Shown here in pieces: positions 2,727 through 58,244 of a stretch of DNA of 64,000 bases (its first letter is position 1; each line of letters starts with the position of its first letter). The DNA lies in the NCBI RefSeq assembly GCF_014695975.1, contig NZ_JACJPI010000056.1, positions 1-64,000 of the forward strand, given 5' to 3'. The position numbers and the translations under genes were made by a program. The notes under the pieces were generated by a model. That model was given only the letters and a program-made list of their open reading frames with translations, had not been told where the DNA came from and did no database searches. Origin of the DNA: Leptolyngbya sp. FACHB-321. GTDB lineage: Bacteria; Cyanobacteriota; Cyanobacteriia; Leptolyngbyales; Leptolyngbyaceae.

Positions 2727-3010
2727 ATGCCGCACTTGTGAGCCAGCACTTTGAAGCGATCGTATTTTTTAGTAACATAATCCCTGACTCCACTTAGCAA
2801 ACTGATTCCCCACTATCAGCAAGGCGCTTGACAACGGCAAGATTGCGCCAGAGCGTTAAGTTTTCTATCAAAAGAATCGCTGTTTTCAATGCTTTTCGGC
2901 ATTATCTGAGCCAGCGAATTGGCTCTCCTTTGGCTAAATTGGAGTATCTTGAATCAAAGGTTACTATCGCTTCCTTTTAAGGGATCGGGGTCAATTTAGA
3001 GTGTTCAACC

Positions 3011-3919
3011 ATGACAAGCACAGTGAACGACATCGTCAAACAAGCGAATCAGGGCAGTGTTGCTGCCATTATTCAGGTTCTCAACGAAAGACTTGCTGAT
3101 TCTGGCGTACGGACACGTGCTATTTTCGCAGATGGAGTGCTGCAAGTCCTTTGTGAAGCAGCGACTCCAGAACAACTAGAGCCGTCAGAGCTTATTGGGC
3201 AAGTTCGGCAAACGTTGGAGGCGATCGCTCCCCGCAACATTCGCCGCGTCAATATCAACAGCCGCATTGTACGAGAACAACAGTTGCTTTGGCTCGATGA
3301 AATTAGTCGTGATCCTGAAAATCAGCTTCTTTGGTCACAAGAAATTACGCTGAATAAAGCTAACCTTCTGCGACACCTTTTGAATGAGTGGCATCAAAAC
3401 ACAGCCCCTCAAAAAACAAACTTACCTACCCGCACCCGAGGACAGCAGCGCGAACAACGCCAATTTTGGCGAGGACTGGTTGGGGGCGCAAGTGCAAGCG
3501 TCTTGCTGTTGTTAGGAGGCTGGGCATTTTACAGTTGGCACGCTGCAAAACCAACGGCGATCGCAAGCCCGTCTAGCTCACAGGTAGCAGCGACACCAAC
3601 TCAAACAACCCTTGCCAGTCCTACCGCTGAGCTTACACCAAAACCGCAGGACTCCTTTTTGATCGCCGTAAGAATTGCAGAGCAGGCATCAAAAGAGGGT
3701 TTGACAGCGCAATCGCCAGCACAGTGGCTCGAATTAGCAGCCCGTTGGCAGCGTGCTTCAGACCTGATGGCAAACGTGCCGAGTGGGGACGGTCGCTACG
3801 TAACAGCGCAGGATCGGGTTGTTGCGTATCGCAAAAATAAGGAAATGGCGCTTATGAAAGCAAATGAGCAGCCTGTAGAGACACCTGCTGATACGACAGC
3901 AGATCCTGTGCTCCAGTGA
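3011..3919 (+). CDS. Conserved cyanobacterial protein with one membrane segment and a C-terminal W-repeat
   Basis: A 302-residue protein. The N-terminal domain (about 1-105) is a compact alpha/beta region ending in RNIRRVNINSRIVREQQLLW, a pattern I recognise as conserved among cyanobacteria but without assigned function. A linker rich in Arg/Gln follows, then one hydrophobic segment (about 154-175, GASASVLLLLGGWAFYSW), a Pro/Thr-rich linker, and a C-terminal unit of about 60 residues (IAEQASKEG...WLELAARWQRASDLM...VPSGDGRY...YRKNKE). This tail matches the W-x(5)-W-x(3)-A/L pattern of the two repeats in the lipoprotein at 26376. Topology suggests the conserved domain in the cytoplasm and the repeat on the other side of the membrane. 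Function unknown. Confidence 0.75.
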   Translation: MTSTVNDIVKQANQGSVAAIIQVLNERLADSGVRTRAIFADGVLQVLCEAATPEQLEPSELIGQVRQTLEAIAPRNIRRVNINSRIVREQQLLWLDEISRDPENQLLWSQEITLNKANLLRHLLNEWHQNTAPQKTNLPTRTRGQQREQRQFWRGLVGGASASVLLLLGGWAFYSWHAAKPTAIASPSSSQVAATPTQTTLASPTAELTPKPQDSFLIAVRIAEQASKEGLTAQSPAQWLELAARWQRASDLMANVPSGDGRYVTAQDRVVAYRKNKEMALMKANEQPVETPADTTADPVLQ

Positions 3920-54369: not shown

Positions 54370-54633
54370 TGAGGTAAGCCAGCAGAGCGAGTGGTTCTCT
54401 TTTGGATCATGCCCACCTTACAGCCTGCGTTAAGACACTAGACGCATTCGGCTGAGAACGGCTCTACTAGATAGCTTTGACCTGTTTGATCCTGCTGGAG
54501 GCGATCGTTATCGATCGGGCTTTGTATCATTGTGAAACAAAATTGGGCAGTCTAGAAGCGTCAATAGTGGCTCTCCTGAAATCAAGCGTTATGATGGGGG
54601 CTGTAATTGATAAACGTTTGTAACAAATTATCA

Positions 54634-56082
54634 ATGATTGTTTCCACTCCTGGTTTAGCCAGAATCAAAGCATCGTTCACCGAGAAAGTTTTTTTCGGAA
54701 ACGAACCAAGCGCCGAACTAATCGCAATCTTGCTGGTTTATTTCGTGCAAGGAATTCTGGGGTTAGCACGGCTGGCAGTAAGCTTTTTTCTGAAAGACGA
54801 GTTGGGTCTGAGTCCGGCTCAGGTGTCTGCCCTGATTGGAGTAGCAGCACTGCCCTGGATGATCAAGCCGTTATTTGGCTTTATCTCAGACGGCTTGCCA
54901 ATTTTGGGCTATCGACGGCGCCCATATTTGATTCTGTCTGGGTTGCTAGGCGTACTGTCCTGGGTTTCTTTAGCCACGATTGTGCACTCTGCATGGGCAG
55001 CAACACTGGCGATCGCTCTTGGTTCTCTTTCCGTCGCATTTAGCGATGTCATTGTCGATTCTTTAGTCGTTGAGCGGGCACGAGGCGAATCCTTAAGCAC
55101 AGCAGGGTCGCTCCAATCGCTCTGCTGGGGAGCATCGGCACTGGGCGGCATTTTAACTGCTTATTTCAGTGGGTCGCTGCTGACAAGCTTCAGCACTCGC
55201 ACGGTTTTTGCGATCACGGCAACCTTTCCGCTCATTGTGTCCCTCGTCGCCTGGATGATCACTGAGTCTCGCGTCACTGAACGGATGAATTGGGCAATCG
55301 TCTCAGAGCAACTTGGACAGTTGCGCCAAGCTGTGAGCCAGAAGTCGATTTGGCTACCAACGGCTTTTGTCTTTCTCTGGCACGCAATGCCGACAACGGA
55401 ATCCGCCTTTTTCTTCTTTGCTACGAATGAGCTAGGGTTTGAAGCGGAATTTTTGGGTCGTATTAACTTTGTCACCAGTCTGGCATCCCTGGCTGGCATC
55501 TGGCTCTTTCAGCGCTTCCTTAAAACAGTGCCTTTTCGGGTCATTTTCGGCTGGTCGATCGTAATTTCTGCGCTCTTGGGTATGACAACGTTGCTGCTGG
55601 TAACGCATACCAACCGTGCGCTGGGCATTGACGATCGCTGGTTTAGCATGGGCGATAGCCTTGTTCTAACTGTAATGGGGCGGATTGCCTATATGCCCAT
55701 CCTGGTGCTGGCAGCACGGCTTTGTCCTCCTGGTATTGAGGCGACCTTGTTTGCCTTGTTGATGTCAATAGTGAACTTAGCGGGGCTGCTATCCCAGGAA
55801 TCAGGTGCATTGCTCATGCACTGGCTGGGCGTGAGTGAAAACAACTTCAGCAATCTGGCGCTTCTGATTGTCATCACCAATCTCTCAGCACTCCTGCCGC
55901 TACCATTTCTTGGCTGGCTTCCCAGTGCGGATGAGTCGTCTAAGCCTGCTGCAGAAAGCTCACACGCGCGCACACTAGAAGCCAACGTTACCTCTAAACA
56001 TTTAGGGCAACCGTTTCTACCTGATTTGATGACTGAGTTCATTCCCCAACCGCGACAGGTTGAACCTGCGGTAGAAGAGTGA
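54634..56082 (+). CDS. BT1 family folate/biopterin transporter
   Basis: A 482-residue polytopic protein with about twelve helices of the BT1 branch of the major facilitator superfamily. FGNEPSAELIAILLVYFVQGILGLARLAV, LSPAQVSALIGVAALPWMIKPLFGFISDGLPI and GYRRRPYLILSGLLG are typical, and the conserved IVDSLVVERARGES loop is present. Cyanobacterial members import folates and pterins. ATG 54634 is used; a TTG 9 codons earlier is in frame but less likely. Hydrophilic Pro/Gln-rich tail. Confidence 0.88.
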   Translation: MIVSTPGLARIKASFTEKVFFGNEPSAELIAILLVYFVQGILGLARLAVSFFLKDELGLSPAQVSALIGVAALPWMIKPLFGFISDGLPILGYRRRPYLILSGLLGVLSWVSLATIVHSAWAATLAIALGSLSVAFSDVIVDSLVVERARGESLSTAGSLQSLCWGASALGGILTAYFSGSLLTSFSTRTVFAITATFPLIVSLVAWMITESRVTERMNWAIVSEQLGQLRQAVSQKSIWLPTAFVFLWHAMPTTESAFFFFATNELGFEAEFLGRINFVTSLASLAGIWLFQRFLKTVPFRVIFGWSIVISALLGMTTLLLVTHTNRALGIDDRWFSMGDSLVLTVMGRIAYMPILVLAARLCPPGIEATLFALLMSIVNLAGLLSQESGALLMHWLGVSENNFSNLALLIVITNLSALLPLPFLGWLPSADESSKPAAESSHARTLEANVTSKHLGQPFLPDLMTEFIPQPRQVEPAVEE

Positions 56083-56257: not shown

Positions 56258-56380
56258 ATACCAATTCCCTTATTACACGCTGTAAGGCAAGGGGGAACTT
56301 GCCTACGGCGTAATTCTTTATAAGGGGGGCCAAGGAGGAGCAGTCGGGGAACGCTGTGGCTAGAATTTTTGAATTGGTAT
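56258..56380. mobile_element. MITE-like element, 123 bp with 10-bp terminal inverted repeats
   Basis: The ends are ATACCAATTC (56258-56267) and GAATTGGTAT (56371-56380), perfect inverted repeats. Inside is a GGCAAG/CTTGCC hairpin. It is non-coding. A related left half occurs at 43041, and one internal word (GTCGGGGAACGCT) recurs at 47272. The 10-bp ends and the length fit a non-autonomous element mobilised by a transposase encoded elsewhere. No clean target duplication is visible. Confidence 0.6.
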
Positions 56381-56659: not shown

Positions 56660-56920
56660 TTAGTCTCTGTTGGGGGAAGCACTAGCCTGCCAGCAAGCAT
56701 TTAGCCGCTGCACCAATGCTTGTCTTGGTAACGTTACCTGCTGAACGACACTCCATACTTGAAGAGCTGTTGCCACACTGCTAACCTGCACCTTCAAAGG
56801 CTGGTAATAGCTACAGCAGCAAGGAATTTCTAACGCTTGTAACCGATAGTAAACTTGCCAATGATCGGTACATTGAATCTCAATTATCTCATTAGTTTGG
56901 GGATTGAGGTCGTTTAGCAT
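56660..56920 (-). CDS. Small conserved hypothetical protein
   Basis: An 86-residue protein. IIEIQCTDHWQVYYRLQALEIPCCCSYYQPLKVQVS includes a CCC cluster that could bind metal or form disulfides, followed by a helical tail (VWSVVQQVTLPRQALVQRLNACW). The pattern is one I associate with small cyanobacterial Asr-type proteins of unknown function. ATG 56920 is preferred over an upstream TTG; AGGAGT lies about 10 bases before it. It is a single gene between repeats and the InsA-like gene. Confidence 0.65.
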   Translation of the reverse strand: MLNDLNPQTNEIIEIQCTDHWQVYYRLQALEIPCCCSYYQPLKVQVSSVATALQVWSVVQQVTLPRQALVQRLNACWQASASPNRD

Positions 56921-57057
56921 CACAGTTGCACTCCTATGCAAAAAAACTTGGAATCGCTTGTTGAAATTTATTGCTAACTAGCCCTTACTCACACGAAATT
57001 CTCTTGCAAAAGCTGCATAACAACATCATGATTTGAGCTGCTAGCGAAGTAGTTTAG

Positions 57058-57456
57058 TCATGAAGCAAAGGCAGCTAGAAGCAGATGGTTACTGCTGGTA
57101 TAAAACTTCTGCTTTTTCTTGAATTTAAAGAACTTTTTTAGCGTTTTTAATACGGTTTCTTCTGAATCATTTTCTGGACTTTCTTCAGATTCAGAGGCTT
57201 CGGATAAAGCTAGGTTTGCTTGCTTAAACCAGTTAATGACGGCATTGTGGCTAATACCAGTGGCTTGTTCAACAGCACGAAAGCTCATACCACTAGCGTG
57301 CATTTTCAAACAAAGCTTTCTGATATCTTCTGAGTAGCCTCTTGTATTATATGACTCCAAGAATTGGCGACCGCACTGCTTACAACTATAGTTTTGCTTA
57401 CCGTGATGATGACCATTTTTACGAGTTTGATTTGAATTACATCTAGGACATTTCAT
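57058..57456 (-). CDS. Solitary IS1 InsA-like zinc-finger/HTH protein
   Basis: A 132-residue protein. The N-terminal zinc ribbon is CPRCNSNQTRKNG...YSCKQCGRQF, followed by the helix-turn-helix GMSFRAVEQATGISHNAVINWF, both typical of InsA of IS1-family elements. The rest differs: an acidic stretch (SEASESEESPENDSEE) then a basic Lys/Phe-rich tail instead of an InsB reading frame. No InsB gene or IS1-like ends are visible on either side. The AT-rich codon use contrasts with its neighbours. It is divergent from dps across 245 bases, so it may be a domesticated regulator; a transposase remnant is the alternative. Confidence 0.7.
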   Translation of the reverse strand: MKCPRCNSNQTRKNGHHHGKQNYSCKQCGRQFLESYNTRGYSEDIRKLCLKMHASGMSFRAVEQATGISHNAVINWFKQANLALSEASESEESPENDSEETVLKTLKKFFKFKKKQKFYTSSNHLLLAAFAS

Positions 57457-57701
57457 ACTTTGATTGTGCAGAGAGGCTTAAATGTAAAAGGGATCTAAGA
57501 ATGCTTCAAGCTACATAAATGCTAAAAAATGTCAGTGTTAATAAAAAACCGTAAAAAACCAGACAGACTAATTCTGAAAATTGATATACTCTTGGCATGA
57601 CACCATGAACATTTGTAGAACGCAGCACTGTTGAAATCGCTAGCAGTGAGTTGCCGTTTATTGGTATTGGCGCATCTAAAATTCCTTAAGAGGAGAACAT
57701 T

Positions 57702-58244
57702 ATGTCTGAAGTTCAAACTTTGATTCGTGCCTTTGGTCAAGTTGCTGATAACCCCGTTTTACTAGAGCGATCGACCACCGAGCCAGTTTGCGAAGGCTTA
57801 AACGCACTTTTGGCGAGTTTTCAGGCGCTCTACTTGCAGTACCAGAAACATCATTTTGTGGTTGAGGGAGCCGAATTTTATTCTCTGCATGAGTTTTTTA
57901 GTGAGAGCTATGAAGCAGTTCAGGAGCATACGCACGAACTGGGTGAACGTCTGGATGGCTTAGGAGGAGTGCCAGCCGCAAGCTTTACAAAACTTGCAGA
58001 GTTGAGCTGTGTTACCCCAGAACCCGATGGCATCTTTAGCTGCCGTCAGATGGTGGAAAATGATTTGGTAGCCGAGCAAGCTGTTATTGGTGTTCTCCGT
58101 CGTCAAGCGGCTCAGGCTGAAAGCTTGGGCGATCGTGCCACTCGGTATCTGTATGAAAAGATTTTGCTCAAAACGGAGGAACGGGCTTATCATCTGGCTC
58201 ATTTCTTAGCATCCGATAGTCTGGTTTTGGGTTTGTTGAATTAG
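57702..58244 (+). CDS. dps: Dps-family ferritin-like protein
   Basis: A 180-residue Dps, forming a 12-mer shell that oxidises and stores iron and protects DNA from peroxide. The ferroxidase region is [20 protein letters not shown] (first His and Asp/Glu-type ligands) followed by [18 protein letters not shown], where the canonical Asp of the DxxAERI motif is replaced by His, as in the His-type cyanobacterial Dps class. The start has AAGAGGAG at 9 bases. A clear terminator follows at 58363. Divergent from the InsA-like gene. Confidence 0.92.

Follow-up and report, generated by a model that had tools for sequence, protein, structure and literature searches.

What a solitary gene for the DNA-binding half of an IS1 transposase is doing beside dps is the question raised by this locus of Leptolyngbya sp. 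FACHB-321, which lies in a window of 64,000 nucleotides (the whole stretch of DNA that was analyzed). A preliminary description had taken the gene, referred to below as solo, to encode an InsA-like protein with a zinc ribbon and a helix-turn-helix (HTH) motif, divergent from dps and without InsB. The open reading frame, the intergenic gap, and matches to NCBIfam models agree with this assignment (Table 1). The solo product matched the NCBIfam profile NF033558 (“IS1 family transposase”) at 96.7 bits, just below the cut-off of 100 (the relative L012 exceeded that cut-off with 102.7 bits), and scored above the cut-off of NF050000, the IS1/IS1595 N-terminal zinc domain model (48.7 bits vs. 28); the Pfam InsA zinc-ribbon model gave only 12.7 bits, at a cut-off of 26.1. 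The match to NF033558 covers profile positions 1–114 of 199, and visual inspection of the three minus-strand frames between 57700 and 56300 revealed no trace of InsB or DDE. The divergent neighbor reached 329.9 bits with the DpsACyan model NF052461 (cut-off 300). On the 3′ side of solo lies an asr1405-like gene, which was overlooked in the preliminary description and belongs to the conserved block; it scored 93.4 bits with NF045598 (cut-off 35), and its listed start is TTG, with an in-frame ATG at 56920. Between this gene and an ORF at 54607–56082, a stretch at 56258–56380 with ATACCAATTC and GAATTGGTAT at its borders resembles, by eye, a small inverted-repeat element.

Table 1. Features of the solo locus, in window coordinates.
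Feature	Position	Strand	Basis and remarks
Asr1405/Asl0597-family gene, directly 3′ of solo	56660..56941	-	NF045598; match in 19/19 cassettes
Degenerate relic IS1 right inverted repeat, TGCATAA-N7-ATGA, lying past the solo stop codon and before the asr1405-like gene	57014..57033	+	16.1 bits, 2/300 shuffles; proposed asr1405 operator
solo, solitary InsA-like gene, 132 aa, ATG start	57058..57456	-	ORF, NF033558, NF050000
Parts of the solo protein: zinc ribbon (~residues 1–35), HTH (~residues 43–86), then a low-confidence, non-conserved tail			
Relic IS1 left inverted repeat, TGCACAA-N7-ATGA, its ATG being the solo start codon	57451..57470	-	16.8 bits, 0/300 shuffles; proposed autoregulatory operator
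dps–solo divergent intergenic region, 245 bp	57457..57701	.	Poorly conserved outside the IS1-end box (alignment, 19 cassettes)
dpsA (cyanobacterial DpsA), divergent neighbor of solo	57702..58244	+	NF052461

An AlphaFold2 model of solo had block-mean pLDDT values of 74–92 for residues 1–80 and below 55 beyond (overall pLDDT 71, pTM 0.43), and a fold search with this model against the PDB returned no match at E values up to 0.001. The gene is the sole full-length copy in its genome, where ten other matches are partial and 31–47% identical.

The order dps < solo > asr1405 was found at no fewer than 19 loci in at least 18 cyanobacterial genomes from three families, so that the fixed divergent arrangement with dps, as originally suggested, was borne out. 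A single scan of the GTDB contig collection produced 64 relatives, and four of the 23 loci inspected (L012–L034) had a divergent dps and a downstream asr1405 (Lyngbya, Stenomitos, Drouetiella, and Tildeniella). Further searches covered 58 genomes and then 388 genomes of the class; the places were cross-read by eye and checked on fetched DNA. All candidates were scored in family f1, to which the window belongs (42 genomes), in f24 (36), and in f11 (6), while at most 11 candidates per genome were scored in the 388-genome search, which makes the cassette count a lower bound. The cassette genomes comprise 13 from f1 (14 loci), two from f24, and three from f11. All 19 solo genes in cassettes are 91–140 aa long, their frame is open in every case, and none has a DDE part. 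A gap of 0–42 bp separates solo from the asr1405 match in the g6 genomes, and co-transcription of the two genes is likely there because of this spacing. One genome (G005) carries the cassette twice, complete each time with a separate dps, solo, and asr1405 (the second is L164, G005:C4:2153-3681). A candidate full-length IS1 beside dps at G005:C4, with a 229-aa open frame, was rejected, since much of that frame is open sequence 5′ of the ATG; the gene is solitary and 136 aa long. In G224, solo and asr1405 occur together at one further locus, with no dps within 7.5 kb.

Of 171 pairs, the 26 lowest in dps dS were used to estimate selection on solo, from NG86 dN/dS ratios of the core (residues 1–80); these pairs share genomes and are not independent. 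Among the nine usable pairs (core dS 0.8–1.8), eight had a core dN/dS of 0.03–0.06 and one, G000/G005, had 0.10. For G268/G026, the youngest pair, the ratio was 0.25 at a dS of 0.11, with few changes counted; pairs with larger dS gave 0.01–0.10 or were saturated. The dps ratios across the same 26 pairs were 0.02–0.11. The solo tail had ratios of 0.30–1.33 in the nine usable pairs and up to 1.75 elsewhere. The zinc-ribbon/HTH core of solo is thus under purifying selection (0.03–0.10), and the tail drifts. The acidic-then-basic tail noticed earlier is present in the window but is not conserved; its acidic stretch matches by position, as judged by eye, the linker that precedes the DDE part of IS1 transposases. 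No full IS1 with the solo tail was met in the searches, but because the tail drifts it cannot serve as a marker. Solo-core distances correlated with dps distances (r = 0.78, n = 19, 0/5000 permutations), also when G012 and f11 were left out (r = 0.65, n = 15, 0/5000), and with asr1405 distances (r = 0.81, n = 18, 0/5000; G077, a partial match, left out).

The gene had been described as lacking recognizable IS ends; comparison with free elements did not bear this out, as a left-end relic and a degenerate right-end relic lie in the window. Alignment of the dps–solo gaps shows little conservation outside a box located at a constant 14 nt before the solo ATG, which reads TGCACA in 16 of the 19 cassettes, TGAACA in G012, and TGCCCA in G008 and G024. 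The ends of full IS1 copies in G302, G165, and G069 read GGCGTTGCACAAATGAAGGATGAAT, GGCGTTGCATAAT.., and GGCGTTGCTGAATAAG.., respectively. A matrix of 20 columns was made from 13 ends of free cyanobacterial IS1 (a 14th, with a shorter spacer, was dropped), from lineages picked after the box was seen; two of the elements used, L087 and L212, have frames that are split or short. Within the dps–solo gap, the matrix matched best at −14 in all 19 cassettes, over the solo start codon. This score was reached by none of 300 dinucleotide shuffles in 15 cassettes, by 4–11 of 300 in G002, G005, and G006, and by 42 of 300 in G012, where the match is not significant and the dps start position is uncertain. 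The left end thus stands out in 18/19 cassettes, vs. 1/17 sites at which dps and asr1405 are divergent with no solo between them (empty sites).

A right end, in the opposite orientation, was found at ≤5/300 shuffles in six of the 17 testable cassettes (G000, G121, G106, G005, G006, and G002), two others having a nil gap after solo; there was no convincing right end in the remaining 11. In G117 and G090, the best right-side match carries the expected letters without scoring above the shuffles, and nine cassettes have another site or none (G005b at 8/300, G077 and G011 at 11/300, without the TGCAYA core). The right end was not found in the six g6 cassettes, though solo persists there.

Other explanations of the box were considered and rejected. 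It is in frame with the ATG, yet it is not coding, as a stop codon in the same frame separates it from the ATG in G033 and G275. A ribosome-binding sequence does not fit with the recurrence of the motif past the gene, in the opposite orientation, in part of the cassettes, and the box does not resemble a Shine-Dalgarno. Nor does the box appear older than the insertion: on the 17 empty gaps, the matrix found nothing alike, with a forward match only in L159 and a reverse match only in L150 (4/200 shuffles each, neither starting with TGCA) and matches at 21/200 or more in the rest. The plain words TGCACA, TGTGCA, or TTGCATAA occur in 5/16 empty gaps. With the exact pattern, no wider regulon shows: only four TGCACAA-N7-ATGA sites, including the gene's own, occur in the 6.7-Mb genome (reversed control pattern, 0).

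The empty sites bear on how solo came to its place. Among 30 dps loci, nine had solo, 16 had a divergent asr1405 without solo, and five had neither. At 19 further dps loci (18 from f1 and one from f24), solo was absent throughout and asr1405 was nearby in six, on the same strand in five and divergent in one (the second dps of G033, L254), which brings the divergent pairs without solo to 17. In f1, dps was found at 1e-40 in 32/42 genomes; 26 of these were inspected, and 13 had the cassette while 13 had no solo beside dps. As the dps–asr1405 gap exists without solo, the gene looks like an insertion into that gap.

As a candidate ancestral promoter element, which plays no part in the reading preferred below, the word TGAGA is present in 14/19 cassette gaps (6.0 on average in shuffles, at most 11) and in 13/16 empty sites (5.2 on average, at most 11); the longer TGAGAAT is present in 1/19 cassette gaps vs. 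10/16 empty sites. In those ten empty gaps (within L139–L163), it stands before asr1405, often followed by TTTGCA and TATnCT. TGAGA resembles a Fur-family box, and the TGAGAAT element may be a Fur-family site accompanied by a −10 box. The window's own dps–solo gap has no TGAGA element.

The tree of these proteins rests on 80 residues and is weak. In it, the f1 and f24 cassettes cluster (92.1/83), with two full-length IS1 proteins inside at moderate support, and the f11 cassettes fall with unlinked solitary genes; a constraint that places all 20 genes (19 cassettes and G224) in one clade was not rejected (p-AU 0.119). The dps-linked solo genes may go back to one insertion or to a few. Other solitary InsA-like genes have different surroundings. 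Four (L226, L131, L227, and L214) are tail-to-tail with a GntR-like regulator, three (L172, L205, and L214) are near a hydantoin racemase-like gene, L172 is also near an allantoate amidohydrolase-like gene, and L171 is near an OHCU decarboxylase; no IS end was seen by eye at these purine/hydantoin-surrounded relatives (L226, L131, L227, L214, L205, L171, and L172). Two more (L170 and L173, from G057 and G233) encode 96-aa proteins that are 64–65% identical to that of the window over 83 residues; their 3′ ends overlap a larger opposite-strand ORF, and there is no dps in the fetched flanks.

A second group of InsA-only genes was found at cheA. Nine genes of 82–101 aa (L018, L020, and L022–L028, from Nostoc, Mojavia, Roholtiella, and Hydrococcus) were picked by length from the 64-relative scan before their neighbors were inspected. 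All nine are divergent, at ~140 bp, from the same cheA-like gene and lie upstream of the same cheY- and cheC-like genes (neighbor families were tested on L018 only; the InsA-like gene is at about 3001–3300 in these loci). In the tree they cluster with another set of full-length IS1 (support 99.6/100), whose ends mostly start with TTGCTGAA; support for the nine as one clade was 49/0. A matrix for this lineage, made from 7/9 ends (two were dropped because of spacing) chosen after the box was seen, placed a left end 38–46 nt before the ATG in 9/9 genes, at ≤1/300 shuffles in eight and 16/300 in L027. A right end was found at ≤2/300 in six of the nine (L018, L020, L022, L023, L026, and, in degenerate form, L028) and was weaker in L027 (9/300), L025 (25/300), and L024 (128/300). 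The best argument for taking the ends to be working sites is that the relic ends in each InsA-only group are those of the IS1 lineage from which that group derives. We give about even odds to the broader proposal that cyanobacteria more than once made IS1 elements into fixed regulatory cassettes. There would be two such lineages, one between dps and asr1405 with TTGCACAA-type ends and one between cheA and cheY-cheC with TTGCTGAA-type ends, each having an InsA-only gene between two host genes and parental ends as operators, with further solitary relatives in purine/hydantoin surroundings. Automatic annotation can hide such cassettes under the name “IS1 family transposase”.

The dps-linked gene has a conserved place, lacks the DDE part, is under purifying selection in its core, and is accompanied by sites that match free IS1 ends. 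The reading we prefer, to which we assign a probability of roughly two in three, is that an IS1 element without its catalytic domain has been retained to repress genes locally, with its former ends serving as operators; it would act on itself, probably on asr1405, and possibly on dps. In an ancestor of these cyanobacteria, an IS1-family element would have inserted between dpsA and the asr1405-like gene, once or a few times, and the half of its transposase with the catalytic DDE domain would have been lost. The half that binds DNA, which corresponds to the IS1 repressor InsA, would have stayed together with the element's ends. The solo protein would bind the relic left end over its own start codon and thereby limit its own expression. 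It would also determine how strongly the asr1405-like gene is expressed, by way of the relic right end or, where the gap is 0–42 bp, of co-transcription, and it may affect the divergent dps promoter from the shared gap. Binding and repression, the direction of the effect, the targets, and any signal of solo are what we infer here. The idea of a domesticated protein, put forward in the preliminary description, gains support from the 19 dps-linked loci, the absence of DDE in all of them, and the purifying selection on the core; its regulatory role in iron or oxidative stress fared less well, as the sites point first to autoregulation and asr1405.

That earlier version, in which solo is a dedicated dps regulator in the iron or oxidative stress response and acts mainly on the dps promoter, draws on the fixed divergent arrangement and on FurA modulation of the DpsA homologue alr3808 (known from a reference title in PMC4788461). 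The clearest conserved box, however, covers the start codon of solo and, in the window, is ~230 bp away from that of dps, and many genomes have dps without solo; we consider this version quite improbable. A host function could also be directed at IS1 itself: solo would bind the ends of live IS1 copies and block transposition in trans, the neighboring genes being incidental. Overproduction of InsA nearly abolishes IS1 transposition in E. coli (PMC12428005), the retained ends match free IS1 ends, and other IS1 relatives are present in many of these genomes. Such a role is nevertheless unlikely, as it explains neither the fixed place between dps and asr1405 nor the upkeep of an end at the solo gene itself, and the other ten matches in the window's genome are only the partial, distant ones.

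It is very improbable that solo is a non-autonomous mobile IS1 derivative, an InsA gene between two ends that is moved in trans and re-enters the same spot. There is no second near-identical copy in the window's genome, solo distances follow those of dps and asr1405, and the gene persists in the six g6 cassettes in which the right end was not found; these observations stand against the two recognizable ends in part of the cassettes and the grouping of the f11 cassettes with unlinked solitary genes, which leaves room for more than one insertion. Simple decay, the alternative raised at the outset, would make solo a functionless IS1 remnant surviving by chance beside dps. A remnant would be expected to look like solo in its drifting tail, its degenerate or missing right end, and its closeness to IS1 transposases, but not to occupy the same place in three families with an open frame in 19/19 cassettes and a core dN/dS of 0.03–0.10 at synonymous sites near saturation, and we hold decay to be highly improbable.

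The repressor reading has a precedent in E. coli: according to PMC12428005, InsA competes there for both ends of IS1 and also represses the IS1 promoter, part of which lies within the left end. Like InsA, solo has a zinc finger and HTH without DDE, and an IS1-type end where its own gene starts. Unlike E. coli IS1, it has no insB or transposase, occurs as one full-length copy at a conserved chromosomal place between the same two host genes, and has a core under purifying selection and ends that are partly degenerate or lost. Full-length cyanobacterial IS1 transposases (e.g., L184, L188, L192, and L195) are homologous to solo over the first 80 residues, and the L184, L188, and L195 groups share with the cassette ends of the form (GGCG)TTGCAYA..ATGA; unlike solo, these transposases are 228–232 aa long with a DDE part, and the L184, L188, and L192 groups occur in several copies whose flanks differ. 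In bacteria, the transcription factor TldR is derived from TnpB. Reuse of transposon DNA-binding proteins as gene regulators is reported in animals, e.g., ZBED and CENPB (PMC13418256 and PMC10027918). Solo differs from these factors in that its source protein is the IS1 zinc ribbon–HTH and that the element's own ends appear to stay as putative operators. The gene asr1405 is named in three papers. A solitary or dps-linked InsA-like regulator was not among the literature matches listed, in a search that left subscription papers and preprints outside; on this weak evidence, the domesticated InsA cassette appears undescribed among those matches and would be a variant of transposon-derived regulators.

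If the preferred reading is correct, a single step is enough to make a host transcription factor out of the repressor with which a transposon controls itself, because the protein arrives together with its operators; with the second lineage at cheA, this becomes a general route that can be tested. Some genes scored as IS1 transposases by NCBI models, such as L012 with its score above the cut-off, would then be host regulators, and dpsA and an Asr1405-type gene would have, next to them, a small regulator of their own in these cyanobacteria.
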